The notes under the pieces: model-generated
The model's database searches: none
The model's input: only the letters and a program-made list of their open reading frames with translations
Told to the model about the DNA's origin: nothing
Translations under genes and position numbers: made by a program
NCBI RefSeq assembly: GCF_003129465.1
Contig: NZ_QFFF01000001.1
Span: 2,217,501-2,281,500, forward strand
Reading direction: 5' to 3'
Length of the DNA stretch: 64,000 nt
Origin: Sphingosinicella humi
GTDB taxonomy: Bacteria > Pseudomonadota > Alphaproteobacteria > Sphingomonadales > Sphingomonadaceae
Part shown: one piece after another, positions 7,950 to 24,790 of the stretch
How positions within the stretch are numbered: position 1 is the stretch's first letter
Layout of the letters: each line of letters starts with the position of its first letter

Positions 7950-9638
7950 ATGAAGGACAGGCTGGAGCGAATCAGTAACTTCATGGTCTCGCTGTTCGCG
8001 GGAATCGCCTCCTTTGTGTTTACGCTGGTCGCCGTCATCATGCTGCGCGACCTCGACGAACAGATTGCGGCGTCGCTCACCATGGGGCTGTTCGCGCTGC
8101 TCATCGTCTGGGTGGCGTCGGAACGGCCCAACAGTGGGCATGCCCGCGCCGTCAGCGCGCTGATCGACCGCCTGCTTGCCGTCGACAAGGGCGATCTCAC
8201 CTCTCCCGCGCCGGCGGTGGTCCGCCATGAGATGCCAGCCCTTGCCTCCGCGGTCGACAATCTGTTCGCCCAGGTGCGCTCCAACCTCGACAACGTCCAT
8301 GTGATGGCCCTCTACGATCCCGTCACCGCGCTCCCCAACCGCATTCATTTCAAGGGCGAGGCCGACCGCATCCTCAAGACGCGTGGACCTGGTGAGCGGG
8401 TTGCCCTGCTGTTCATCGACTTGGACGGCTTCAAGGAAGTGAACGACAATCTCGGCCACGCCCTGGGGGATCATGTTCTGACGATGGTCGCCAATCGGCT
8501 GCGCGAGGTGGTGAAGGCCGAAGCGCGCCCGGCGCACGAGCCGCAGCCGCTCCTCGCTCGGCTCGCGGGCGACGAGTTCACCTTGCTCCTGCCCGCCGTG
8601 GAGGACGCGCAGGAGGCCGAACGGATCGCCGGCCTGGCTCTCGCTGCCATCGGCCAGCCCTATAGCGCCGCCGAGCACTCCGTCGACATGGGCGCCTCGA
8701 TCGGAGTCGCCATCTGCCCGCGCCACGGCGAGGATCTCACCAGCCTGATGAAGGCGGCGGATACCGCCATGTACGACGCCAAGGCCAAGGGACGTTCCCG
8801 GGTCTCGCTCTATCGCCCCGAAATGGCGGCGGCCGTCGAGCAGAAGATCATGACGGAAAAGGCCCTGCGACAGGCCCTCGCGCGCGGCGAGTTCGAGCTT
8901 GCCTTCCAGCCGCAGATCTGCGCGCGCACGGGCTCGGTGCTGGCGGCCGAGGCGCTGCTGCGCTGGAACCACCCGACCGAGGGCATGCGGCTTCCCGGCA
9001 GCTTCATCGCCGTCGCCGAGGAAAGCAGCCTCATGGTCGACATCGGCGACTGGGTGATCGATGCCGCCGCGGCGACGCTTCAGCGCTGGCGCGCGGCCGG
9101 CATGACTCAGCGGCTGACCTTCAACGTCAGCCCCCGTCAGCTGGAGCGCCCGGACTTCTTCAAGCGCCTGCGCGAAACCCTCGCCCACACCTGCGCTCCC
9201 CCTTGGCTGCTCGAGCTTGAGTTCACCGAGAGCCTCGCCATGAAATGCGACGAAGCCGCGCTTTGCGAACTGGCGGCGCTGCGCGAGGAAGGCGCCTCCG
9301 TCGCCATCGACGATTTCGGCTCCGGCTATTCGAACCTGTCGCGTCTCAACGACATGCCGTTGGACCGCATCAAGCTGGATCAGGGGTTGGTCCAGGGGGT
9401 CGACGTATCGGACGGGGCCCGTACGATCGTCTCGGCTGTCATCCATCTCATCCACGGCCTCGGCTGCGAGGCCGTAGCCGAAGGGGTGGAGCGGACCGAG
9501 CAGCGCGACGTGCTGCGGGCGATCGGCTGCGACCTCCTCCAGGGCTTCGCCTTCGCCGAGCCGATGGGCGAGGCGGAATTCGTCGCCTGGATCGGTGATC
9601 ACATGCTGCCGCCGGCGCGGCTGCCGAGGATCGCCTAG
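7950..9638 (+). CDS. Membrane-anchored GGDEF-EAL cyclic-di-GMP protein
   Basis: About 562 residues. There are two N-terminal membrane helices (about 11-32 and 40-56), a short HAMP-like linker, a GGDEF domain whose signature reads AGDEF, then an EAL domain with EALLRW, NVSPRQ, LEFTES, DDFGSGYSNL, IKLD and EGVE. All of the usual metal and catalytic residues of the phosphodiesterase seem present, so c-di-GMP hydrolysis is likely; AGDEF can still support cyclase activity in some proteins. The start is uncertain: ATG 7950 fits the membrane topology, but GTG 7938 and ATG 7914 are in frame. It converges on dapE. Confidence 0.9.
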   Translation: MKDRLERISNFMVSLFAGIASFVFTLVAVIMLRDLDEQIAASLTMGLFALLIVWVASERPNSGHARAVSALIDRLLAVDKGDLTSPAPAVVRHEMPALASAVDNLFAQVRSNLDNVHVMALYDPVTALPNRIHFKGEADRILKTRGPGERVALLFIDLDGFKEVNDNLGHALGDHVLTMVANRLREVVKAEARPAHEPQPLLARLAGDEFTLLLPAVEDAQEAERIAGLALAAIGQPYSAAEHSVDMGASIGVAICPRHGEDLTSLMKAADTAMYDAKAKGRSRVSLYRPEMAAAVEQKIMTEKALRQALARGEFELAFQPQICARTGSVLAAEALLRWNHPTEGMRLPGSFIAVAEESSLMVDIGDWVIDAAAATLQRWRAAGMTQRLTFNVSPRQLERPDFFKRLRETLAHTCAPPWLLELEFTESLAMKCDEAALCELAALREEGASVAIDDFGSGYSNLSRLNDMPLDRIKLDQGLVQGVDVSDGARTIVSAVIHLIHGLGCEAVAEGVERTEQRDVLRAIGCDLLQGFAFAEPMGEAEFVAWIGDHMLPPARLPRIA

Positions 9639-10771
9639 CCGGCGCCCAAGGCCGACTCGATCATCCGCCTGTAAATGGCGCGGAGGGTCCTCAGATCGTC
9701 GACCGCGACGGCCTCATCCAGCTTGTGCATCGTCGCGTTCGGAAGGCCGAATTCGATCAAGGGACAAAGCCGGGTGAGGAAGCGCGCGTCGGACGTGCCG
9801 CCGCTGGTCGAAAGGACCGGCGTCAGGCCGGTTTCAGCGCGGATGGCGTCGGTCATCATGTCGGAGAGCGGCCCCGGCTCGTTCAGGAAAGCCTCGCCCG
9901 AGATCTTCGCCTCGAACCGCGCGCCGGGCGCATGCGCCTCGACGATGTCGCGCACGCGTTCGACCAGTTCGGGTCCGCGCTGCCGGTCATTGAAGCGGAT
10001 GTTGAGACGCGCATGGGCCTCGCCCGGGATGACGTTGCAGGCGGGATTGTCGACCCTGAGGTCGGTGATTTCGAGGTTGGACGGCTGGAACCACTCGGTG
10101 CCGTCATCCAGCGGCATGGCTTCGAGCGTGGCGAGGATGCGGGCGAGGCGCGCGATCGGGTTGTCGGCGAGATGCGGGTAGGCGACGTGACCTTGGGTGC
10201 CGGGGACGTCGATCCAGATGTTCACCGAGCCACGGCGGCCGATCTTCGCCATGTCGCCGAGACGATGCTCCGACGTCGGCTCGCCGATCAGGATCATGTC
10301 GGGGCGGATCGAGCGTTCCGCCATCCATTCCATGATTGCGGCGGTGCCGAAGACGGCGGGGCCTTCCTCGTCGCCGGTGATGATGAAGCTTAGCGTCCCT
10401 CGGTGGGTCGGCACGTCCGCCGCCGCCGCGACGAAGGCGGCGATGGCGCCCTTCATGTCCACTGCGCCCCGACCGTAGAGGAGGTCGCCGCGTATCTGGG
10501 GCGTAAAGGCGTCGGACGTCCAGCCGTTGCCCGCGGGAACGACGTCGATGTGACCGGCGAAAGCGAAATGGGGCGAGCCGCTGCCGCGCGAGGCGAAGAG
10601 ATTCTCGACCGGTCCGTCCGGCGCGCTGCCGGAGAGGAAGCGATGTACCTCGAAACCGAGTTCCTGCAGCGCCTCACCCAATATGGTGAGAGCGCCCGCT
10701 TCCTGCGGCGTGATGCTGGGGCAGGCGATGAGGCGGGAGGCGAGGTCAACGGGGTCGATTGCAGCGGTCAT
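9635..10771 (-). CDS. dapE: Succinyl-diaminopimelate desuccinylase
   Basis: Hydrolyses N-succinyl-L,L-diaminopimelate in the lysine and peptidoglycan-precursor pathway, using two Zn ions. It has 378 residues of the M20 family: FAGHIDVVPAG, YGRGAVDMKG and ITGDEEGPA carry the metal ligands and catalytic acid, and STSGGTSDARF is the DapE-type C-terminal signature. The length is normal. The 3' end overlaps the 3' end of the GGDEF-EAL gene by 4 bases. Confidence 0.95.
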   Translation of the reverse strand: MTAAIDPVDLASRLIACPSITPQEAGALTILGEALQELGFEVHRFLSGSAPDGPVENLFASRGSGSPHFAFAGHIDVVPAGNGWTSDAFTPQIRGDLLYGRGAVDMKGAIAAFVAAAADVPTHRGTLSFIITGDEEGPAVFGTAAIMEWMAERSIRPDMILIGEPTSEHRLGDMAKIGRRGSVNIWIDVPGTQGHVAYPHLADNPIARLARILATLEAMPLDDGTEWFQPSNLEITDLRVDNPACNVIPGEAHARLNIRFNDRQRGPELVERVRDIVEAHAPGARFEAKISGEAFLNEPGPLSDMMTDAIRAETGLTPVLSTSGGTSDARFLTRLCPLIEFGLPNATMHKLDEAVAVDDLRTLRAIYRRMIESALGAG

Positions 10772-16187: not shown

Positions 16188-16828
16188 ATGGTCGCGCATG
16201 TCGCCACGGTGGCGTTTCTGGGGCTCGAGGCGCGCGCCGTCGAGGTGCAGGTCCAGATTGCGAGCGGCCTGCCGAAATTCGTCGTCGTAGGTCTCCCGGA
16301 CAAGGCGGTCGCCGAGAGCCGGGAGCGGGTGCATGCGGCGCTCGCCGCCATCGGCCTCTCGCTTACGCCCAAGCGCATCACCGTCAACCTGTCGCCGGCC
16401 GATCTCCCTAAGGAGGGGTCGCATTACGATCTTCCGATCGCGCTCGGCCTGCTCGCGGCCATGGGCGCGGTCGATGCCGAGATGCTGGCCGGCTATGTCG
16501 TCATTGGCGAGCTCGGGCTCGACGGCCGGCTGGCGCCGTCGCCGGGAGTGCTGCTCGCGGCGATGCACGCCTCGTCGCGCAGCCTCGGGCTCATCTGCCC
16601 GGCGGCGCAAGGATCCGAAGCCGCCTGGGCGGGCGACATCGAGGTGCTCGCCGCGCCCGACCTCATCGCGCTTCTCAACCATTTCCGCGGAAGCGCGGCT
16701 TTATCGCCGCCCACGCCGGGCGAGGCCGATCCGCCGGGGTTCGGCCCCGACCTCGCTCAGGTGAAGGGGCAGGAGACCGCCAAGCGGGCGTTGGAGATCG
16801 CCGCGGCAGGTGGTCACAATCTCCTCAT
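16188..16828 (+). pseudogene. comM: comM, N-terminal fragment (interrupted)
   Basis: First part (about 214 residues) of the Mg-chelatase-like ATPase ComM, the hexameric helicase that drives branch migration during natural transformation. The protein begins MVAHVATVAFLGLEARAVEV and keeps the ComM N-domain through GQETAKRALEIAAAGGHNLL, then stops matching at the element boundary. Read-through into the element gives 45 unrelated residues before a stop at 16967. The missing ATPase half resumes at 23915. Together the halves make about 505 residues, the normal ComM size. Confidence 0.92.
16815..16828 (+). other. Left attachment site (attL) core
   Basis: CACAATCTCCTCAT, coding comM residues HNLL, is matched at 9 of 14 positions by the right-junction sequence in the same register. 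Serine integrases need only a 2-bp identical core, so the exact crossover cannot be fixed. Confidence 0.55.
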
Positions 16829-16841
16829 ATTGTGTATTCAA

Positions 16842-16861
16842 GACCCCTCTAGACATCTGAG
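16842..16861 (+). repeat. Left terminal inverted repeat of the element
   Basis: GACCCCTCTAGACATCTGAG resembles the inverse of the sequence at 23882-23901 (read on the minus strand as GACCCTCTAACTTCTAAGAG), allowing small gaps. These may be recombinase-binding arms. Confidence 0.4.
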
Positions 16862-16893
16862 TCTGAGCACCTCAGGATGGGCAAGGGGTTCAT

Positions 16894-17799
16894 ATGAAAC
16901 GAATCGTTGGGGTTTGGGTGTTCGCGGCGGGGTTGGCTGCGTGCCAGTCCTCAGATTCGCCGCGTAGCGCATCGGAGGCGCGGCCATCGACGCCAGCCGA
17001 CACTGTCGCTGTTAGCGAGCCGCCAGTCCCTTCTGTCGATGTGCTTCTGGGGACGACGCCGTTGCCTACCTCCGACTGGATAGACGGAAAAGCTCGGATG
17101 GGATTGGCGTATTGCACCTCCGACACCGGGGCTGCCGTTGTAGATGCCAGTTGTGGTTGGCCCCCGGAGGCGCGATGGGCGAGTGCCACGACAACGGCGA
17201 CCGCCGCATTTGCAGACGCGGATGTCGCGGCTCCATTTCTCCCTTGGCCCCCTCCCCAACCGAGTAGCATGGACAGCCTTACGGGTCGGGTGAGCCTGAA
17301 GGGGCGGCTGGGTGACGTTGCTCAGCGATTGCGCTCCAAACTCGATGGGAAAGGCTATGACAAAGTCCTCTATTTTGGAGTGGAGGGCGGGTTCGCAATG
17401 GCCACCGAACTTGAGCGATTTGCCGCTGACGGGAGCCCTGTCGCGGAGAAGCGGTTTTCGACGGGTAAGATAGGGGGATGGCTTGGTGCCTTCGACTACT
17501 TCAAAAGGCTTGTCTGGGGAGAGGATGGGCGCTTCCGAGTTTTTGTGTTCGTCGTGACCAATCGAGCTTTTACGCCTGCTTCGTACGCCGCGACTGAAAC
17601 CGATTTGGGTCGCTGGCGGTCCACCGGAAGCTTGATACTGCCCCCTCGGGTGTCGACCACGCCTGTTCCGTCGGGTACGACCGTCACTCTCCTGGTGTAC
17701 GAATTTCAGGCCGATAAGGGTCGGGAGGGGAGGCTGGTCGCCGAGAACGAGCGACTTCCGTTCGCAATTCACGCGAAATCCCTTGGATTTGCATCATGA
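16894..17799 (+). CDS. Element cargo: predicted lipoprotein of unknown function
   Basis: A 301-residue protein, not recognised. The N-terminus is a clear lipoprotein signal (MKRIVGVWVFAAGLAAC, Cys at 17), followed by a Ser/Pro/Thr-rich spacer to about residue 50. It then has a first region with two Cys (CTSDTG, SCGW), a Pro-rich stretch (PWPPPQPSS, about 115-123) and a C-terminal domain with FGVEGGFAMATELERF and FRVFVFVVTNRAF. The ATG is followed after 905 bases by a stop that overlaps the next gene (ATGA), so the lipoprotein and a four-helix membrane protein are probably made together. No family can be named. Confidence 0.75.
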   Translation: MKRIVGVWVFAAGLAACQSSDSPRSASEARPSTPADTVAVSEPPVPSVDVLLGTTPLPTSDWIDGKARMGLAYCTSDTGAAVVDASCGWPPEARWASATTTATAAFADADVAAPFLPWPPPQPSSMDSLTGRVSLKGRLGDVAQRLRSKLDGKGYDKVLYFGVEGGFAMATELERFAADGSPVAEKRFSTGKIGGWLGAFDYFKRLVWGEDGRFRVFVFVVTNRAFTPASYAATETDLGRWRSTGSLILPPRVSTTPVPSGTTVTLLVYEFQADKGREGRLVAENERLPFAIHAKSLGFAS

Positions 17800-18206
17800 C
17801 GCGTGAGGAAGCCCTCCAGCGGGTACTGTATGTGTGGCTCGGTGTCGCACCACTTCTTGGATTGCTGATTTTGGCCCAGGCCGTAGCAGGGAAATATGGC
17901 GACGACGCTTCCTCGGCTTGGAGCTGGTATCTGGCGCTTATAGTCCCTCCAGTATCCATTCTAGTGACTGCGGCCTTGGTGGACCCTAAAGCTAGCTGGA
18001 GAAACGCCGCAGCTCATGCCTTTAAGTATCGATTGGCATTTTGGGGAAGCGGGGCGCTCCTCTTCATTGCGTTCACCTTGTTACTGGCGGAGCCGGGTAT
18101 GGAGGCAGCGCCCTACCAATTGTTTGAGCAATCGGCGATATTGCTCACGGTCCTTCAAGGTATAGTTCTAGCAGCCATCGGAGCTGTGGTGTTCGACCGC
18201 CGTTGA
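17796..18206 (+). CDS. Element cargo: small four-helix membrane protein
   Basis: A 136-residue protein with four hydrophobic segments at about 12-31, 43-62, 80-98 and 112-131 and a short charged N-terminus (MTREEALQR). Not recognised. The start overlaps the stop of the upstream lipoprotein gene by four bases, so the two are translationally coupled and may act as an envelope pair. Confidence 0.72.
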   Translation: MTREEALQRVLYVWLGVAPLLGLLILAQAVAGKYGDDASSAWSWYLALIVPPVSILVTAALVDPKASWRNAAAHAFKYRLAFWGSGALLFIAFTLLLAEPGMEAAPYQLFEQSAILLTVLQGIVLAAIGAVVFDRR

Positions 18207-18359
18207 GCGGGGGCTGTACGCTTCTTTCTGTTTCGATGTCTTTCTGGCACACCCGCGATAGCTATGCTCCGCACAACCCGCAGCCTAACCCGCTGAAACA
18301 TAAACATCTATTCGAAGCTGCCGAGGCGGGTCAACGACCGGAAAAGCCATATTATCCAG

Positions 18360-19142
18360 ATGGCGATGCCTAGCTCGCGCCTCTATACCGCATGTGCAAA
18401 TTGTACACCTGTATCCTCGGAGAGTCCCATTTCAGCTCCTGATATTCAGCGCCTCAGATGGCGCCAAGCATCCCTCGGCGTTTCAATCATTAAGCTAGAT
18501 AGGCGATTTCAACCGCGAGACACCCTGAGTGAGAACACAGTTGCTCGATACAAAGCGGCGATGCTGCGTGGTGATGCGTTCCCGCCAATCTCTGTAGCCC
18601 GTATCGGAAGGGAGCTGTTCGTTGTTGATGGCTTTCATCGTTTGGAAGCCGCCCGGGCAGCGGGACTTGAGACCGTTGAGGCTCGCGTAGCAAACATGCA
18701 GGAGGATACCGCAGTAGCCGTTGCAATCGAGGCTAATGCTACCCACGGGCTCTCATTGAGCCGAAGCGACAAGCGTCGATGCTTCGCCCTGTATGTCGAA
18801 GCGGGAAGGCATTTACGCCTGGACGGCACCGTTAAATCTCTTCGACAAATCCGACGAGAACTCGCCAACATAGCTTGGCCGAATACAATTTCCCGTTGGT
18901 TGCGCGATGCCAATATCCAGCCAACGATTGAAGATGATGGTCCGGTCGTCTCCTGGGTAGACAATGATATTACACAGGGCGAGGGTCTCGACAACGAGCG
19001 GCTCTCTGAACTCCAGGCATTCGTGGACTCCGCAGACTACCTGTATCAGCAGCTCGAAGATGCAGAGAGTCGACTGGTCGCGCGTGAGTGGATTAAGAGG
19101 CTGTGGTCCCGAGTAGAGGCCCACGATGCCCTGGAGATTTGA
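18360..19142 (+). CDS. Element cargo: ParB-like (ParB/Srx N-domain) protein
   Basis: A 260-residue protein. The ParB-type fold is indicated by IIKLDRRFQPRDTLSENTVARYK, PPISV and VDGFHRLEAARAAG (DGFHR in place of the GERR motif), then EANATHGLSLSRSDKRR. A helix-turn-helix-like stretch follows (NTISRWLRDANIQPT) and an acidic C-terminus. It could be a DNA-binding regulator or CTPase-type protein of the element; there is no ParA next to it, so plasmid-style partition is not implied. The start is uncertain between ATG 18360 and ATG 18366. Confidence 0.78.
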   Translation: MAMPSSRLYTACANCTPVSSESPISAPDIQRLRWRQASLGVSIIKLDRRFQPRDTLSENTVARYKAAMLRGDAFPPISVARIGRELFVVDGFHRLEAARAAGLETVEARVANMQEDTAVAVAIEANATHGLSLSRSDKRRCFALYVEAGRHLRLDGTVKSLRQIRRELANIAWPNTISRWLRDANIQPTIEDDGPVVSWVDNDITQGEGLDNERLSELQAFVDSADYLYQQLEDAESRLVAREWIKRLWSRVEAHDALEI

Positions 19143-19241
19143 ATGTAACTCGACGCAAATGGCGGGCAATTAACATCCCCAGAATGCCAGGGGGCAGGGG
19201 AGAATGTTAGCGCGCGAGGCGCATTGGGGGGAGGAATGCAT

Positions 19242-19610
19242 GTGAAAGCAATCTTTATAATTGGCTGCCTTGGGGCACTTGCAGCTTGCGCGAACAACGA
19301 TGGGCCGACTGAGGATGAACTCTTGTCGCAAATTGCCCGCCTGGAAAACGAAAACGCGGAGTTGGCGCGGCAGCTTGAGGATGCGCAAACAACCATCGAG
19401 GACGCTCAAGCGAGCTTATCGGAAGTCGAAGCTGCTGTTGCCTCCGTACAGAATGCTCATTCTGAATTAGACCATATAGCTGCACGCTTCGACTACGACG
19501 ATTGGAGGTATGTAGTTCCTGATTTGGACGAGGCAGTTAGCGAGTTGGAATCCGCAGAATCTCAGGTGTCCCAAAGCCTATCAGAGACAGCCTCGGTCCT
19601 TGAGAATTGA
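19242..19610 (+). CDS. Element cargo: small coiled-coil lipoprotein
   Basis: About 122 residues. A lipoprotein signal (MKAIFIIGCLGALAACANN, Cys about 16) is followed by a heptad-rich coiled coil (EDELLSQIARLENENAELAR and on) to about residue 85, then a short acidic tail. The architecture is like Lpp or phage-spanin-type small envelope lipoproteins, but no family is recognised. GTG 19242 is chosen for its 7-base spacing to GGAGG; ATG 19236 and 19224 are in frame. Confidence 0.65.
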   Translation: MKAIFIIGCLGALAACANNDGPTEDELLSQIARLENENAELARQLEDAQTTIEDAQASLSEVEAAVASVQNAHSELDHIAARFDYDDWRYVVPDLDEAVSELESAESQVSQSLSETASVLEN

Positions 19611-19644
19611 CGCTAGAGCCAGCGTTCACAGCTAGGTCCATGCC

Positions 19645-20301
19645 TCACAGAACCCTGAGCACCTGAGTTGCCGTCCAGTTTCCTCCCCGTCGCGTCCGAA
19701 TGCCTTTTTCGTTCAATGAACGTGCCAACGCCGACGCGCTAACGATACCTTCGGCCTTTAACGTCTGAAAGACAGGAGCAATCCTCTGGCGGAATTCCTC
19801 AGCCGCCTTCCGCTTGGCTTCCCGCCCCTGCGCTGGGTCCACCTTCACACCCCGGAAGCCACCTAGCTTCACGCCCCGTGCCTTCGCCGCCGCAAGAGCT
19901 GCCTTGGTCCGCTGAGAGGTAAGTCCTGCCTCCAGCTCAGCTACAGCCGCCATCTGAGTCAGAATGAAGCGCCCCATCGCTCCCTCGACTTGCGGCAGGT
20001 CCCCGAATGCCACGTCCACTCCGCTGTCAATCAAGGTGAGGAGGAATTTAGTGTCTCGCGATAGACGGTCTAGCTTCGCTACAAGGAGCGTTGCCCGCGT
20101 GAGTTTCGCGTGGGCCAGCGCCTTAGCCAACTCCGGTCTATCGCCTCGCCTCCCACTCTCTACTTCCACGTATGTAGGAGAAAGCAGCGAGTCCCCCGGT
20201 TTCAGGAATTGCCGGATAGCTTCCTCCTGAGCCTCTAGGCCCAATCCTGAGCGACCTTGCTTGGCCGTGGAGACGCGGACGTATGGAACATAGGCGGTCA
20301 T
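19645..20301 (-). CDS. Small serine recombinase (resolvase/invertase type)
   Basis: A 218-residue site-specific recombinase. The N-terminal catalytic domain has YVRVSTAKQGRSGLGLEAQ with the nucleophile Ser near residue 11, AKLDRLSRD, and the long E helix region (FILTQMAAVAELEAGLTSQR). The C-terminus holds a helix-turn-helix-like DNA-binding part (LKAEGIVSASALARSLNEKG). It could resolve, invert or regulate within the element. A 36-bp inverted repeat lies just upstream of its start codon. Confidence 0.93.
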   Translation of the reverse strand: MTAYVPYVRVSTAKQGRSGLGLEAQEEAIRQFLKPGDSLLSPTYVEVESGRRGDRPELAKALAHAKLTRATLLVAKLDRLSRDTKFLLTLIDSGVDVAFGDLPQVEGAMGRFILTQMAAVAELEAGLTSQRTKAALAAAKARGVKLGGFRGVKVDPAQGREAKRKAAEEFRQRIAPVFQTLKAEGIVSASALARSLNEKGIRTRRGGNWTATQVLRVL

Positions 20302-20312
20302 AGCTGAGGCCT

Positions 20313-20348
20313 TTACATACCAGTGAACGGACGTTGACTAGTATGTAA
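20313..20348. promoter_or_regulatory. 36-bp inverted repeat, candidate resolvase site or operator
   Basis: Arms TTACATACCAGT (20313-20324) and ACTAGTATGTAA (20337-20348) match at 11 of 12 positions around a 12-bp spacer. It sits 11 bases upstream of the small recombinase start codon. The layout suits binding of a recombinase dimer or autoregulation. Confidence 0.55.
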
Positions 20349-20441
20349 CATGCTAATGCCTACCTGTGAATCCCCTTTTGTGCGGAAGCTGGTGGGCTCA
20401 CGGTGCATATGTCGGCCGGTCGTTAGGTATGATGGGGGCGA

Positions 20442-20624
20442 GTGAGCTTGGCCGGGGAGGGGCGGTTCCATTTTCGGCGGGTCGCCTTTGCTTTCGGCTG
20501 GGACTCCTACGGGTCCCATTTCCTCCGCGTCTCGGGTCCCCCTGGCATTGCAATTAGACGTTTCAAAAAAGCCGTTAAAGCCTCGGCCACGGTTGTTGTT
20601 GTTCCCATCGTTGCGTCACAGTAA
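20442..20624 (+). CDS. Possible small protein in the element (weak)
   Basis: The 306-base stretch 20349-20654 has no clear gene. It holds one open frame of 60 codons with a GTG start preceded by GGGGG, ending VVVVPIVASQ. The composition is plausible for a short basic protein, but nothing is recognised; it may simply be leader sequence for the membrane-protein gene downstream. Confidence 0.25.
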   Translation: MSLAGEGRFHFRRVAFAFGWDSYGSHFLRVSGPPGIAIRRFKKAVKASATVVVVPIVASQ

Positions 20625-20654
20625 GGTTTCGGAAAATTCAGGGGGAGAGAGGGG

Positions 20655-20972
20655 ATGGGGGCTGTTGTCAGTGCATTTCACGCGACTTTCGTTTTGGCCG
20701 CGACGTGGCTTGTCTTGTTGCCCATTGGGGTCCTGAGAGCCTTTATCATTTGCGACATGTGGGCTTGGTTTGTCGTTCCGTTGGGCCTGCCTCAAATTGG
20801 CGTCTTACATGCCTTCGGGTTGTCGCTATTCATCGGCTTGTTTATGGACCCGTCACTCTCAGCAATGCTTGCGCGTGAGGACAAAGAAGCATCGCTACAG
20901 GTATTCGCTCAAAGCGTATTCGGCTGGCTGTTCACATGGGCGGCGGGCGCGGCTATCGCCGTGATGCTGTGA
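20655..20972 (+). CDS. Element cargo: small membrane protein
   Basis: A 105-residue protein with three hydrophobic segments at about 5-30, 35-62 and 85-104. Not recognised. A strong Shine-Dalgarno (GGGGGAGAGGGG) lies directly upstream of the ATG. The next gene starts 15 bases after its stop, so the two are likely cotranscribed. Confidence 0.68.
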   Translation: MGAVVSAFHATFVLAATWLVLLPIGVLRAFIICDMWAWFVVPLGLPQIGVLHAFGLSLFIGLFMDPSLSAMLAREDKEASLQVFAQSVFGWLFTWAAGAAIAVML

Positions 20973-20986
20973 CGGGGGTTGCCTCA

Positions 20987-21595
20987 GTGAAATACCGGGA
21001 GTTCTATAACAGCTTACTGCGCACCATCTACGAGGCCGCGGAAGTGCATGGGCCTGAGTATTTCACCATCGGAGAGATGGCAAAGGTGGCTGAATTGCCG
21101 CTGCGCGACAATTGGATTGCCCGCTTTTCAGATGAGACCGCTACGAACGGTCACGCCCAGGTATCGGGGCACATGGGACCGCGCGAGACATGGAAGGTCC
21201 GTATTCGGGCTCCCGGCTCAGCATTCGTCGAAGAACATATCGAACGGGATAGAGGATGGGGGTTCGCCGTCCCTAGCGGCGATGAAGCGCAGCCTCCCCG
21301 CGAGTTGGGAAGCGTAGCGAATAGTCGCTCCGCCTCGTCCGCCCGCGCATCGCTCCCGCACGAAAGCCAGGAATTGCTTGTCTCCGCATTAAAAGAAGCT
21401 GAGGACGCGCTAGATAGTCTTCGTATGGGCAACAGTGAGAAGTCCCAGGCGCGAGCCTATATAGTTGCGGCACTCAGCTTGGCCGAATCACCTGAGCCGC
21501 CGGCCGACTTGATATGGGAAATCGTCAATCGGGCGAGCCAAATCTCGGGCATCGCTGCTCTTTTCGTCTCCATCGTCGCTCTATTCGTGCAATGA
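20987..21595 (+). CDS. Element cargo: winged-helix-like, C-terminally anchored protein
   Basis: About 202 residues, not recognised. The N-terminal part (residues 1-75) looks like a small helical, winged-helix-type module (YNSLLRTIYEAAEVHGPEYF, then TIGEMAKVAEL). A charged linker follows, then a helical segment (SQELLVSALKEAEDALDSLR) and one C-terminal hydrophobic helix (ISGIAALFVSIVALFVQ) that ends the protein, as in tail-anchored proteins. The GTG at 20987 has GGGGG 8 bases upstream; GTG 20969, overlapping the previous stop, is the alternative. Its neighbour is a three-helix membrane protein. Confidence 0.65.
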   Translation: MKYREFYNSLLRTIYEAAEVHGPEYFTIGEMAKVAELPLRDNWIARFSDETATNGHAQVSGHMGPRETWKVRIRAPGSAFVEEHIERDRGWGFAVPSGDEAQPPRELGSVANSRSASSARASLPHESQELLVSALKEAEDALDSLRMGNSEKSQARAYIVAALSLAESPEPPADLIWEIVNRASQISGIAALFVSIVALFVQ

Positions 21596-21600
21596 GTCCT

Positions 21601-22302
21601 TTAACCGGACCGAGAAGAAATATCTTGTTCACACAATGAAGTGATGACAGGTATTAGGTCGGAAACTTTCTTTTGCCAGTGTAGAACACCGGCGAGTGCT
21701 CCGGCGACGCTGTGAAGTCCGATTAGGACCCTCACTTTATAGCGGTCCGTTTCAGTCCCGAAGTGGGTTAGTATTTGTTCCCGGTCCACGGTGGAGAAGG
21801 CGCCACAGGTTCCATCCCAATTCGGGTGAGCTACTTCGCAAAGTTGCTCATACTGGCCGAGTAGGCCGGGAGCGTCTTTGTCGGCGCCTTTTAACATGGC
21901 CATCACATTGACGGCTTGGGGCATCGCCTCATCATTCCTGCTGCCCAGTAATAGCTGCATGACTGTCTCATCAAAATTTGCCTCCAGTCCTCCCTCTACT
22001 TGTCGTTGAAGGAGTCTATGGAGGTGGCCCATGGCGGCTGCTACTTCTACTAAAGCCCTCGCAAGGACGTTTCCCGCGATAGCGTCGCCTCGCGCTAATG
22101 AGGCATATCCGGACCGGGAGAGCTCGTTCGCTCGCCACAGGAGACCCTGTCGGTAGCAGGCGACTTTGTAGGGAGTTTTCGCTGTGAAGGAGATTTCGGC
22201 TGGGTCGACCGCAGGCATCAAGAGCTTCGCTAGGGTATCGCGCTGCTCGGCTATTTCATTTAGCAGCTCCTCAATACGCTTTTCTCGCGCAACTTCCTCC
22301 AT
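21601..22302 (-). CDS. Element cargo: unknown helical protein beside the integrase
   Basis: A 233-residue, mostly helical soluble protein. Not firmly recognised. Features: a coiled N-terminus (EEVAREKRIEELLNEIAEQR), a middle with LARALVEVAAAMGHLHRLLQ, and a segment EQLCEVAHPNWDGTCGAF. The ARxxVE plus HPxxxG pattern is loosely like HEPN or DUF5677-type domains found in some defence and toxin genes; this is a weak resemblance. It lies 15 bases downstream of the large recombinase on the same strand, so it is probably cotranscribed with it. Confidence 0.65.
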   Translation of the reverse strand: MEEVAREKRIEELLNEIAEQRDTLAKLLMPAVDPAEISFTAKTPYKVACYRQGLLWRANELSRSGYASLARGDAIAGNVLARALVEVAAAMGHLHRLLQRQVEGGLEANFDETVMQLLLGSRNDEAMPQAVNVMAMLKGADKDAPGLLGQYEQLCEVAHPNWDGTCGAFSTVDREQILTHFGTETDRYKVRVLIGLHSVAGALAGVLHWQKKVSDLIPVITSLCEQDISSRSG

Positions 22303-22317
22303 TCTCCCTCCGATGCT

Positions 22318-23874
22318 CTAGAGACTAGTTAGGTGGCTCTCGTTGGGCCACATAAACGGGACCTCGCACGTCCCGCCGTGAGTCCACTCAAAAACCAGTT
22401 CTCCGTGCGGATAGTTGATAACTACGCGCGAAAAGACGCTCCGCATGGCGTGATTAGCTGCCTCACGGTCCAGCGACGCTGCCTCCAAGGCCTCCAGAAG
22501 CCTCTCCACCCTTTGCCCGACAAGAGGGCCCGACGCGGCCGAACGCCTGTCCAGCAAGTCATCCCTAGCGGCTGTAAGCTCCACTAGCTCCGCCTCTAGA
22601 GTCTTGAGCTTTGAAGCGAGGGCAGGGGAGTGAGAAAACGTAAGGTTGCCCACCGCCGTTTTGATTTGGTCCCTAAGCACGTCTAGTTGAGCTTCCACGC
22701 TCGCGAGTGCGTCGTCCAGCTCTCCAGTTCCGCCCCCCGCCGGAGTGTCCCTGAGACGCGAAGGCAGACGCTCTATGATGGCTTGCTCTACCCACTCGTA
22801 GCGGACGGATTTGTAGCTACACCCAGCTCCGGCCTTCGCCCGCGCACAGACGAAAGACGGAACACTCCGCTTGCCCTTGTTCACGCGAGTGGCGGTCCCC
22901 CCGCACGTGGGGCAGGTTGCAAGACCAGCTAAGATATTACTGATTGCGCTCCTCGCGTGGCGTCCGCGCGTGGGCGCTCTTTGGCTCGCCTGGAGAGCTT
23001 GAACCTCTTTCCAAAGAGCCTCCGGAACAGCGGCGGGAAAGTAGCCCTGCACCGGCTCCAGGGGCTTCCGAACCTTCCGATTGTCCTCATACTCCAGTGT
23101 TTGGGGCTGGAACGTCCCAATGACGGCCGGATTGCTGAGTATCTTGGCAATGTATGACCTGTGCCAATGCTTCCCGCGCCCCCATGGCGCGAGACCTTCA
23201 CGGTTGAACGTCTCCGCTATCTTGTGTTGCCCCAAGCCTTCTATGGTCAGCTCGAATATCCGCCGCACTAGTTTTGCGCGTTCGGGTATAAGACGAAGAA
23301 CGTTGCTTTGCCGGTCCAGCGTTATCCAAGCCGGGACGCGGCTGGTTAGCGGTCGCTCCGCCAGATTGGCCCTCTTGTTCTCCCAAGCCTGTTTGAGGCG
23401 CCGCGCCTTGGTCACGCTCTCCTCATTGGCGCGCATGAACACCATTATGGAGACCAGGAGGTCTATCGGGTCATCAAGTGACTCCGGGGAATACTCGCGT
23501 CCATCGTTCAGCGTCACGATAGAGATTCCGGCTTCCAGAATGTCCTCCAGTATTCTCCTCGCCAAGCGGGGAGTGAGACGACTGAGCCGGTCCAATTGCT
23601 CGATTAGTAAGAGCGACCCTTTCGGAACCAAGCCGGTATGGACGGCTTCAAGAAAGTAGGCGAGGCGGCCCCCCGCAGCGTTCTGCCCTCGAAATGCCGA
23701 AACCCCTAAGTCGTGAAAGGTGAGGGTTTCGTCCAATTCTAGATTGTGTCGCCGCGCGTAATCTCGTGCCATCGACATTTGTCGGCGGAGGCTGTCTCCC
23801 TTCATTTGCTCCGGCGTTGAGAAACGCAGGTAGGAGTAGGCCTTTCTGAACGCACGGGAGGGATTGCTGGACAT
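22318..23874 (-). CDS. Large serine recombinase (integrase of the element)
   Basis: A 518-residue recombinase that likely inserted the element into comM. Domains in order: resolvase catalytic domain (residues 10-160; YSYLRFSTPEQMKGDSLRRQ with the nucleophile Ser19, and EQLDRLSR), recombinase domain (about 175-280; KIAETFNREGLAPWGRGKHW), zinc ribbon (about 315-360; CPTCGG then two more Cys), a coiled coil (about 375-430) and a C-terminal tail. The start codon lies 35 bases inside the right end of the element, the usual place for an integrase next to its att site. Confidence 0.93.
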   Translation of the reverse strand: MSSNPSRAFRKAYSYLRFSTPEQMKGDSLRRQMSMARDYARRHNLELDETLTFHDLGVSAFRGQNAAGGRLAYFLEAVHTGLVPKGSLLLIEQLDRLSRLTPRLARRILEDILEAGISIVTLNDGREYSPESLDDPIDLLVSIMVFMRANEESVTKARRLKQAWENKRANLAERPLTSRVPAWITLDRQSNVLRLIPERAKLVRRIFELTIEGLGQHKIAETFNREGLAPWGRGKHWHRSYIAKILSNPAVIGTFQPQTLEYEDNRKVRKPLEPVQGYFPAAVPEALWKEVQALQASQRAPTRGRHARSAISNILAGLATCPTCGGTATRVNKGKRSVPSFVCARAKAGAGCSYKSVRYEWVEQAIIERLPSRLRDTPAGGGTGELDDALASVEAQLDVLRDQIKTAVGNLTFSHSPALASKLKTLEAELVELTAARDDLLDRRSAASGPLVGQRVERLLEALEAASLDREAANHAMRSVFSRVVINYPHGELVFEWTHGGTCEVPFMWPNESHLTSL

Positions 23875-23881
23875 GTAAGGG

Positions 23882-23901
23882 CTCTTAGAAGTTAGAGGGT
23901 C
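23882..23901 (-). repeat. Right terminal inverted repeat of the element
   Basis: Read on the minus strand this is GACCCTCTAACTTCTAAGAG, an imperfect inverse of the left end sequence at 16842-16861. It lies between the integrase start and the right junction. Confidence 0.4.
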
Positions 23902-23908
23902 CTAAGTC

Positions 23909-23922
23909 CATAACGTGCTGAT
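23909..23922 (+). other. Right attachment site (attR) core
   Basis: CATAACGTGCTGAT is in the same comM reading register as the left core (HNVL against HNLL) and matches it at 9 of 14 bases. Confidence 0.55.
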
Positions 23923-24790
23923 GAGCGGCCCGCCTGGCGCCGGCAAGTCGCTGCTCGCCGCTTGCCTCCCCGGCATATTGCCTGAGCTGACGCCGTCCGA
24001 AGCGCTCGAAGTGTCGATGGTCGCGAGCGTCGCCGGTTCGCTCGTGGACGGTCGGCTGATGCGCAAGCGTCCCTTTCGTGCCCCGCATCATTCGGCGTCG
24101 ATGGCGGCCCTCGTCGGCGGCGGTCTCAAGGTCCGCCCAGGCGAGGTCAGCCTTGCCCATCTCGGCGTGCTCTTCCTCGACGAGCTTCCCGAGTTTCAGC
24201 GCTCGGTGCTCGATTCGCTTCGTCAGCCGCTGGAGACCGGCACCGTCAGCGTCGCCCGCGCCAACAGCCATGTCACCTTTCCGGCGCGCGTCCAGCTCAT
24301 CGCTGCGATGAATCCCTGTCGCTGCGGTCATCTCGGCGATCCCGCGCTCGCCTGCTCCCGCGCGCCGCGCTGTGCCGCCGATTATCAGGCGAAGGTGTCC
24401 GGCCCGCTTCTAGATCGCATCGATCTTCACTGTGATGTCGCCGCCGTCTCCGCCGCCTACCTGGTCCTGCCACCGCCCGCGGAAGGGTCGGCGGAAGTCG
24501 CCGCTCGCGTAAAGGCCGCGCGCGACGCCCAGACCAACCGCTACAATGGCAGCGGCGTCCGCACCAATGCCGAGGCCGACGGCGACCTGCTCGACGAGGT
24601 CGCGTCGCCCGACGAGCCGGGGCGGAAGCTCCTGGCGCAGGCGGCCGAGGCGATGCGGCTCTCGGCCCGTGGCTTCCACCGCGTCCTCCGCGTCGCCCGG
24701 ACCGTGGCCGATCTCGCCGGCAGCGAGCGCGTCACCCGCGTCCATGTCGCCGAGGCCCTGAGCTATCGGCGGCAGGCGCCGCGCAATTGA
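23915..24790 (+). pseudogene. comM: comM, C-terminal ATPase fragment
   Basis: The remaining 291 residues of ComM. It opens with the Walker A loop (LMSGPPGAGKSLLAACLPGI), then RPFRAPHHSAS, Walker B (LGVLFLDELPEF), the sensor region (QLIAAMNPCRCG) and the C-terminal Mg-chelatase domain ending ALSYRRQAPRN. The sequence itself looks intact and under normal codon use, so disruption is by the insertion alone. A GTG at 23915 could in principle give a separate ATPase-only polypeptide, but no Shine-Dalgarno is evident. Confidence 0.92.

Follow-up and report, generated by a model that had tools for sequence, protein, structure and literature searches.

The protein ComM is reported to aid recombination across heterology (PMC11472951), and the gene that encodes it is a known site of insertion. 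As far as the available text of these studies goes, insertions of Tn6022 and Tsy fall in the Walker B region of comM (Faure et al., 2023, PMC10293859), and 12.4% of the site-specific large serine recombinases (LSRs) predicted by Durrant et al. (2022) target a gene described as 'magnesium chelatase/ATP-dependent protease' (PMC10083194). Protection of comM elements against replacement has already been proposed in print. Here we describe a locus of Sphingosinicella humi at which a gene of the ChlI/ComM family, the mark of that LSR target group, is disrupted. LSR insertion into this gene family is already known, and the locus is a well-resolved new example of it. The window, by which we mean the whole 64,000-nucleotide stretch of DNA analysed, is C1:2217501-2281500 on a 2.7-Mb contig of a 3.03-Mb genome.

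The interrupted comM gene

The initial annotation proposed that comM is split in the window by a serine-recombinase element of about 7.1 kb, and the closer analysis bears this out. An insert of 7,094 bp, with an LSR gene at one end, separates an N-terminal half (16188-16825, plus strand; ComM residues 1-213, up to the crossover dinucleotide) from a C-terminal half (23918-24790, plus strand) that contains Walker A and Walker B and matches PF01078. Joining the flanks at their common CT gives a scripted empty site with a 502-aa frame and no internal stops; the expected rejoining thus holds for the uninterrupted frame, but the length is 502 rather than about 505 residues. The joined protein is identical at 457 of 502 positions to the intact 502-aa ComM of a genome of the same genus (G017). 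Comparison with comM of element-free relatives, suggested earlier as a check, places the break at the ends of the insert: blastn matches to the intact same-genus loci end at window position 16828 and restart at 23908-23916 in six of six cases. The GC content of the insert is 57%, against 66% and 65% in its two flanks.

The insertion lies just ahead of the Walker A loop, as first described. Its core dinucleotide forms bases 1-2 of codon 213 (Leu), three codons ahead of Walker A, and the motif GPPGAGKS begins at residue 216. Three matches to PF13541 were found in the whole genome. One is the comM N half, and the others lie in long open frames (816 and 505 aa) that presumably encode Lon and RadA; by that test, therefore, there is no second comM.

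Genes and features of the element

The LSR gene (22318-23874, minus strand) is uninterrupted, starts 43 bp from the attR core and encodes a 518-aa protein in which Resolvase, Recombinase and zinc ribbon domains occur together. Directly behind it, on the same strand and 15 bp away, is an ORF of 233 aa (21601-22302, minus strand) with no Pfam hit and a predicted structure of pLDDT 43, for which tblastn found no relatives in the loci searched. A second, small serine recombinase of 218 aa (19645-20301, minus strand; PF00239, E 2.2e-27) is preceded by a 36-bp dyad with 17-bp arms and a 2-bp centre (20313-20348), which ends 11 bp before the start of the gene and has no second copy in the genome even when 3 mismatches are allowed.

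The other ORFs are all on the plus strand. Those of 301 aa (16894-17799), 136 aa (17796-18206), 105 aa (20655-20972; hydrophobic) and 219 aa (20936-21595) have no Pfam hit, and the N terminus of the 301-aa protein presumably resembles a lipoprotein signal. An ORF of 260 aa (18360-19142) has a ParB N-terminal domain (PF02195, E 4.2e-6) and relatives in 5 other loci, and one of 128 aa (19224-19610), coiled-coil with a lipoprotein-like N terminus, gave weak matches only. Among these nine window ORFs Pfam matched only serine recombinase, ParB and weak coiled-coil models; it found no phage structural or packaging gene and no Tn7 transposition protein, and PADLOC returned only weak coiled-coil matches, all on the 128-aa ORF. 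An assignment as ICE/IME was rejected, as Pfam detected no relaxase or conjugation gene in the window ORFs. A conserved cargo gene was likewise sought and set aside: tblastn of the eight non-LSR window ORFs against the loci searched gave no relative for five of them (301, 136, 105, 219 and 233 aa). The element is compact and without recognised transfer genes.

Attachment sites, core and orientation

A short core common to attL and attR, inverted attP arms and an integrase gene beside the att site are all present in the window. The crossover dinucleotide is CT at both ends, at 16824-16825 (attL core) and 23918-23919 (attR core). Comparison of the junctions defines a left attP arm of 21 bp starting with GGGTC (23897-23917, plus strand) and, inverted relative to it, a right attP arm of 21 bp ending with GACCC (16826-16846, plus strand), so that the attP is nearly symmetric about its CT. 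Among 75 attP arms, a set drawn from mixed LSR clades and including one arm of an unclear element (L099), GGGTC is exact and in register in 24, matched at 4 of 5 positions in 5 and at 3 or fewer in 46. Position counts give a majority half-site of about GG[GT][TC][CT]nnnnGT[CA]CA[CT]AACATG, the inner part of which is similar to the adjoining comM sequence, CACAACCTG.

All 19 elements that were parsed automatically have identical cores at both ends (15 CT, 4 TT), as do five of six elements read by hand (L069, L078, L084, L119 and G195, the last being L098/L145 with TG). The exception is L097, whose two cores are CT and TT, which brings the overall agreement to 24 of 25 elements; since the junction parser took only CT, TT or TG at the core, agreement among the parsed elements mainly tests C against T. 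At L105 a different dinucleotide is found on the C side.

The direction of insertion varies. Of 49 labelled rows, 35 have the LSR beside the C half, which is the arrangement of the window, and 14 have it beside the N half. Mapped on an LSR tree of 46 sufficiently long rows, L099 included, orientation changes 12 times, compared with a mean of 12.1-12.2 for shuffled labels, and is therefore not inherited with the LSR. The clearest pair comes from Pseudomonas (L114 and L115), where LSRs that are 84.6% identical have inserted at a CT core in opposite directions. With attP arms so close to symmetry, another 2-bp core would be enough to flip the direction; for Bxb1, orientation is said, after work by Ghosh from 2003, to be set by the central dinucleotide alone.

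comM as a recurrent target of LSRs

Contigs were scanned with an alignment (A1) of the window LSR and three LSRs from relatives, two of them at comM; a query made up mostly of comM-site LSRs biases the result towards comM-site matches. The scan gave 89 LSR relatives, from which 80 loci were retained. In 46 of these, the end of a ComM match lies no more than 250 bp from the start of the LSR, and in all 46 the distance is at most 90 bp. The initial annotation had suggested looking for the same integrase type beside comM fragments elsewhere, and such loci are indeed frequent: ComM is broken around residues 210-215, no more than 90 bp from the LSR, in 45 of the 80, with tblastn ends that in some rows overrun or stop short by up to tens of residues. 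Two further loci (L076 and L085) share the break site, with the parsed start of the LSR 1.1 and 1.9 kb away, ComM lies at a distance of 5.5 kb at L072, and the scanned DNA of 31 loci contains no ComM half. Hosts of the 45 loci include alpha-, beta- and gammaproteobacteria, Geomonas and a metagenome-assembled genome (MAG) labelled Planctomycetota (L126). L085 likewise comes from a MAG, with the label Gemmatimonadetes; such labels carry less certainty. Complete elements measure 3.8-10.4 kb, the upper size being bounded by the 10-kb scan flanks. In the plasmid and phage collections (82 and 188 records) every LSR match is below 60% identity.

The 197 related genomes include 40 with an LSR match (E<=0.001) and 183 with a ComM match. 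Thirty-six genomes, mostly with short or multiple ComM matches, were chosen for reading the junctions, and at least eight (G069, G036, G064, G163, G195, G021, G179 and G029) have junctions at this comM site; the halves are on separate contigs in G064 and G029, and a single side was read in G021 and G179. The comM halves of G036 are 35 kb apart.

Breaks were also seen elsewhere in comM. At L099 (Bradyrhizobium sp. URHD0069, 9358-9990 and 17700-17804) an LSR lies beside a comM broken near residue 19-35, and the match of this comM piece also ends near residue 213 on its other side, so that the gene is apparently interrupted twice. Because of the position of its LSR, L099 was left out of the count for residues 210-215; it was kept in the LSR tree, the arm table and the open-element control. 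Several loci (L155, L163 and L164-L166, from G001, G010 and G176) have a break after about residue 346. The element ends of G001 and G010 are alike at this point, and in G176 a single N piece is accompanied by three separate C pieces that start near residue 342, as though several elements had accumulated there. At L172 and L173 (G158) the break is at about residue 302, within the Walker B motif, the region reported for Tn6022/Tsy. A more distant LSR, of 30% identity, lies some 60 bp from a comM N piece ending near residue 338 at L153 (G110), which may represent a second LSR type with a different comM site. Finally, L169 (G009) and L174 (G022) show comM matches in two overlapping frames with no insert, near residues 461 and 414 respectively, consistent with frameshifts or sequencing errors.

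A second serine recombinase and the cargo of related elements

With a profile grown from the 218-aa protein of the window, a small serine recombinase (<400 aa) was found in 18 of 24 complete elements, window included; the far boundaries of L069, L078, L084, L097 and L119 were placed by hand. The six complete elements without it are L069, L073, L084, L094, L097 and L116. Leaving the window aside, the frequency is 17/23 in complete elements versus 9/18 in open ones, L099 counted among the latter. Next to LSRs that have no ComM half, the same profile matched 1 of 27 downstream stretches and 0 of 29 upstream ones, these control LSRs being more distant and their element ends undefined; it also matched 1 of 48 host-side stretches. 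For 17/23 versus 1/27, Fisher's test gives p = 1.5e-7 with relatedness ignored. The small recombinases of comM elements belong to several subfamilies, and in the available text of the literature searched no comM element is described as having a second, small recombinase.

The idea that the small recombinase is a comM-specific gene was discarded, as good matches occur in genomes with intact comM (e.g. G053 and G012); matches at E<=0.001, many of them weak, are present in 110 of the 197 related genomes. A dyad as a family-wide site is partly supported. Among 26 rows, some of them copies of one locus, 60 simple shuffles per row gave a frequency of 0.05 or less in 12, the window included, a level not reached in the other 14. 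Relatives of the small recombinase in other genomes (L183, L186, L189 and L192) have dyads ending 14-24 bp before their start, which suggests that the dyad accompanies the small recombinase rather than comM.

The cargo set comprised 117 ORFs from 19 elements, according to our own ORF picking. It includes 14 Resolvase-domain proteins among the best 25 of 61 Pfam families and five ParB-like proteins among the best 25 of 80 PHROGs families. Ten large cargo proteins were inspected singly, and two of them had no match in either library. As to cargo identified in individual elements, L114 encodes an Eco57I-type methylase, next to a PLD-nuclease-like protein that falls just short of the Pfam cut-off; L080 has a Drt2-like reverse transcriptase, L070 a Schlafen/PDC-S50 protein, L073 an arsenic pump, L076 a cytosine methylase and L116 a relaxase.

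Proposed mechanism and alternative explanations

The insertion in the window very probably arose by LSR-catalysed recombination between the attP of the element and a comM attB, with the crossover at the CT of Leu codon 213. The LSR of the element itself would act on attP and attB to place it in comM, excision would require a directionality factor, and the element would presumably travel with the help of other carriers, such as transformation, phages or plasmids. What makes the comM site a suitable target is probably that the DNA encoding the P-loop region is conserved while the gene is non-essential and present in one copy, a combination that would open a wide host range. A more ambitious reading, which we put forward tentatively and consider rather unlikely, is that the LSR elements at this comM site form one coherent class of compact islands with two recombinases: the LSR would fix them at one base of comM, the small serine recombinase with its own upstream dyad would carry out a separate needed step (e.g. 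multimer resolution or cargo exchange), loss of comM would be selected, and the direction would flip freely, as a near-symmetric attP needs only a 2-bp change of core. Both the main reading and the two-recombinase reading are slightly weakened by the discordant cores of L097, the relaxase of L116 and the small recombinases outside comM.

Among the alternatives, the one with nearly as much in its favour as against it holds that comM is merely a convenient conserved target and that loss of ComM brings the element no benefit. Site-specific LSRs share targets unrelated to competence as well, e.g. a prolyl isomerase, but the available text of the same study reports DNA competence genes to be enriched among LSR targets (PMC10083194), and Tn7-like and Tsy elements are described as entering comM too (PMC10293859).

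Regulated excision is exemplified by the comK prophages of Listeria, and a similar reversible switch, restoring comM when needed, would be possible in principle for an element whose LSR gene is uninterrupted and whose excision at the core would rebuild the full frame. We nevertheless consider such a switch improbable: no directionality factor was identified, and any conservative integration restores the frame, so that in-frame restoration is no evidence of regulation.

A third alternative, that a Tn7-like (AbaR/Tn6022) or tyrosine-recombinase (Tsy) mover made the insertion and the LSR is cargo, draws on the occurrence of both types in comM, as far as the available reports describe it (PMC10293859; PMC11472951), and is very improbable. 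Pfam matches of the nine window ORFs are limited to the serine recombinase, ParB and weak coiled-coil models, the insertion precedes Walker A instead of lying at Walker B, and an LSR stands at the element end in 45 of the 80 scan loci. The earlier view that the mechanism is unlike that of AbaR is upheld by the LSR-type element, the window ORFs free of Tn7 Pfam matches and the site before Walker A. That the split gene is an assembly join or chimera is scarcely credible, because the contig extends over 2.7 Mb, the same structure recurs in many unrelated assemblies, and the empty site is in frame.

Probable consequences for ComM and for the host

The first reading held that the ATPase is disabled. 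The Walker A motif itself is whole in the C half, which has lost the N-terminal part, the lead-in to the P-loop and the normal start, and disabling is what we infer from the gene structure. Given the parts missing from the C half, loss of ComM function through the insertion is likely. The proposal that the insertion would lower DNA uptake has to be withdrawn, since the role described for ComM is in recombination across heterology after uptake (PMC11472951, available text). The host genome encodes members of the ComEC and DprA families, so transformation is possible, to judge from gene content. Reduced recombination of foreign DNA may additionally shield the insert, and protection by this route is plausible.

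Comparison with known systems

The window case pins the comM site to the base pair, and comM-site LSR elements are a natural source of attB/attP pairs, with CT or TT as the core, in a gene that is conserved. Two questions become testable, namely whether ComM loss aids the persistence of the element and why a second serine recombinase is present in most of the complete islands examined. Like the window element, the Listeria comK prophages, which carry an A118-type serine integrase, are a case of an LSR entering a competence gene; they differ in being full prophages, in occupying a regulator gene and in belonging to a different phylum.

Insertions in comM of Acinetobacter baumannii are mobile elements, some with defence genes, that interrupt comM as here, but the available text describes AbaR islands, IS, integrons and defence loci and no LSRs at this site (PMC11472951). 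Tn6022/AbaR and Tsy likewise insert into comM. The former uses a Tn7 transposase with TnsF and the latter a tyrosine recombinase, both at Walker B, whereas the window has an LSR before Walker A; on the available account, comM is thus a target common to unrelated movers, serine, Tn7-like and tyrosine (PMC10293859). The initial annotation saw a serine recombinase in comM as a different mechanism hitting the same gene; the element is of LSR type, but its presence there is not a surprise, such insertions having been published (PMC10083194). The LSR clusters of Durrant et al. (2022) are among the closest counterparts: they also disrupt this gene family, with many diverged LSRs sharing one target, and, unlike the present work, the available text gives no base position within the gene, no second recombinase and no analysis of orientation (PMC10083194).
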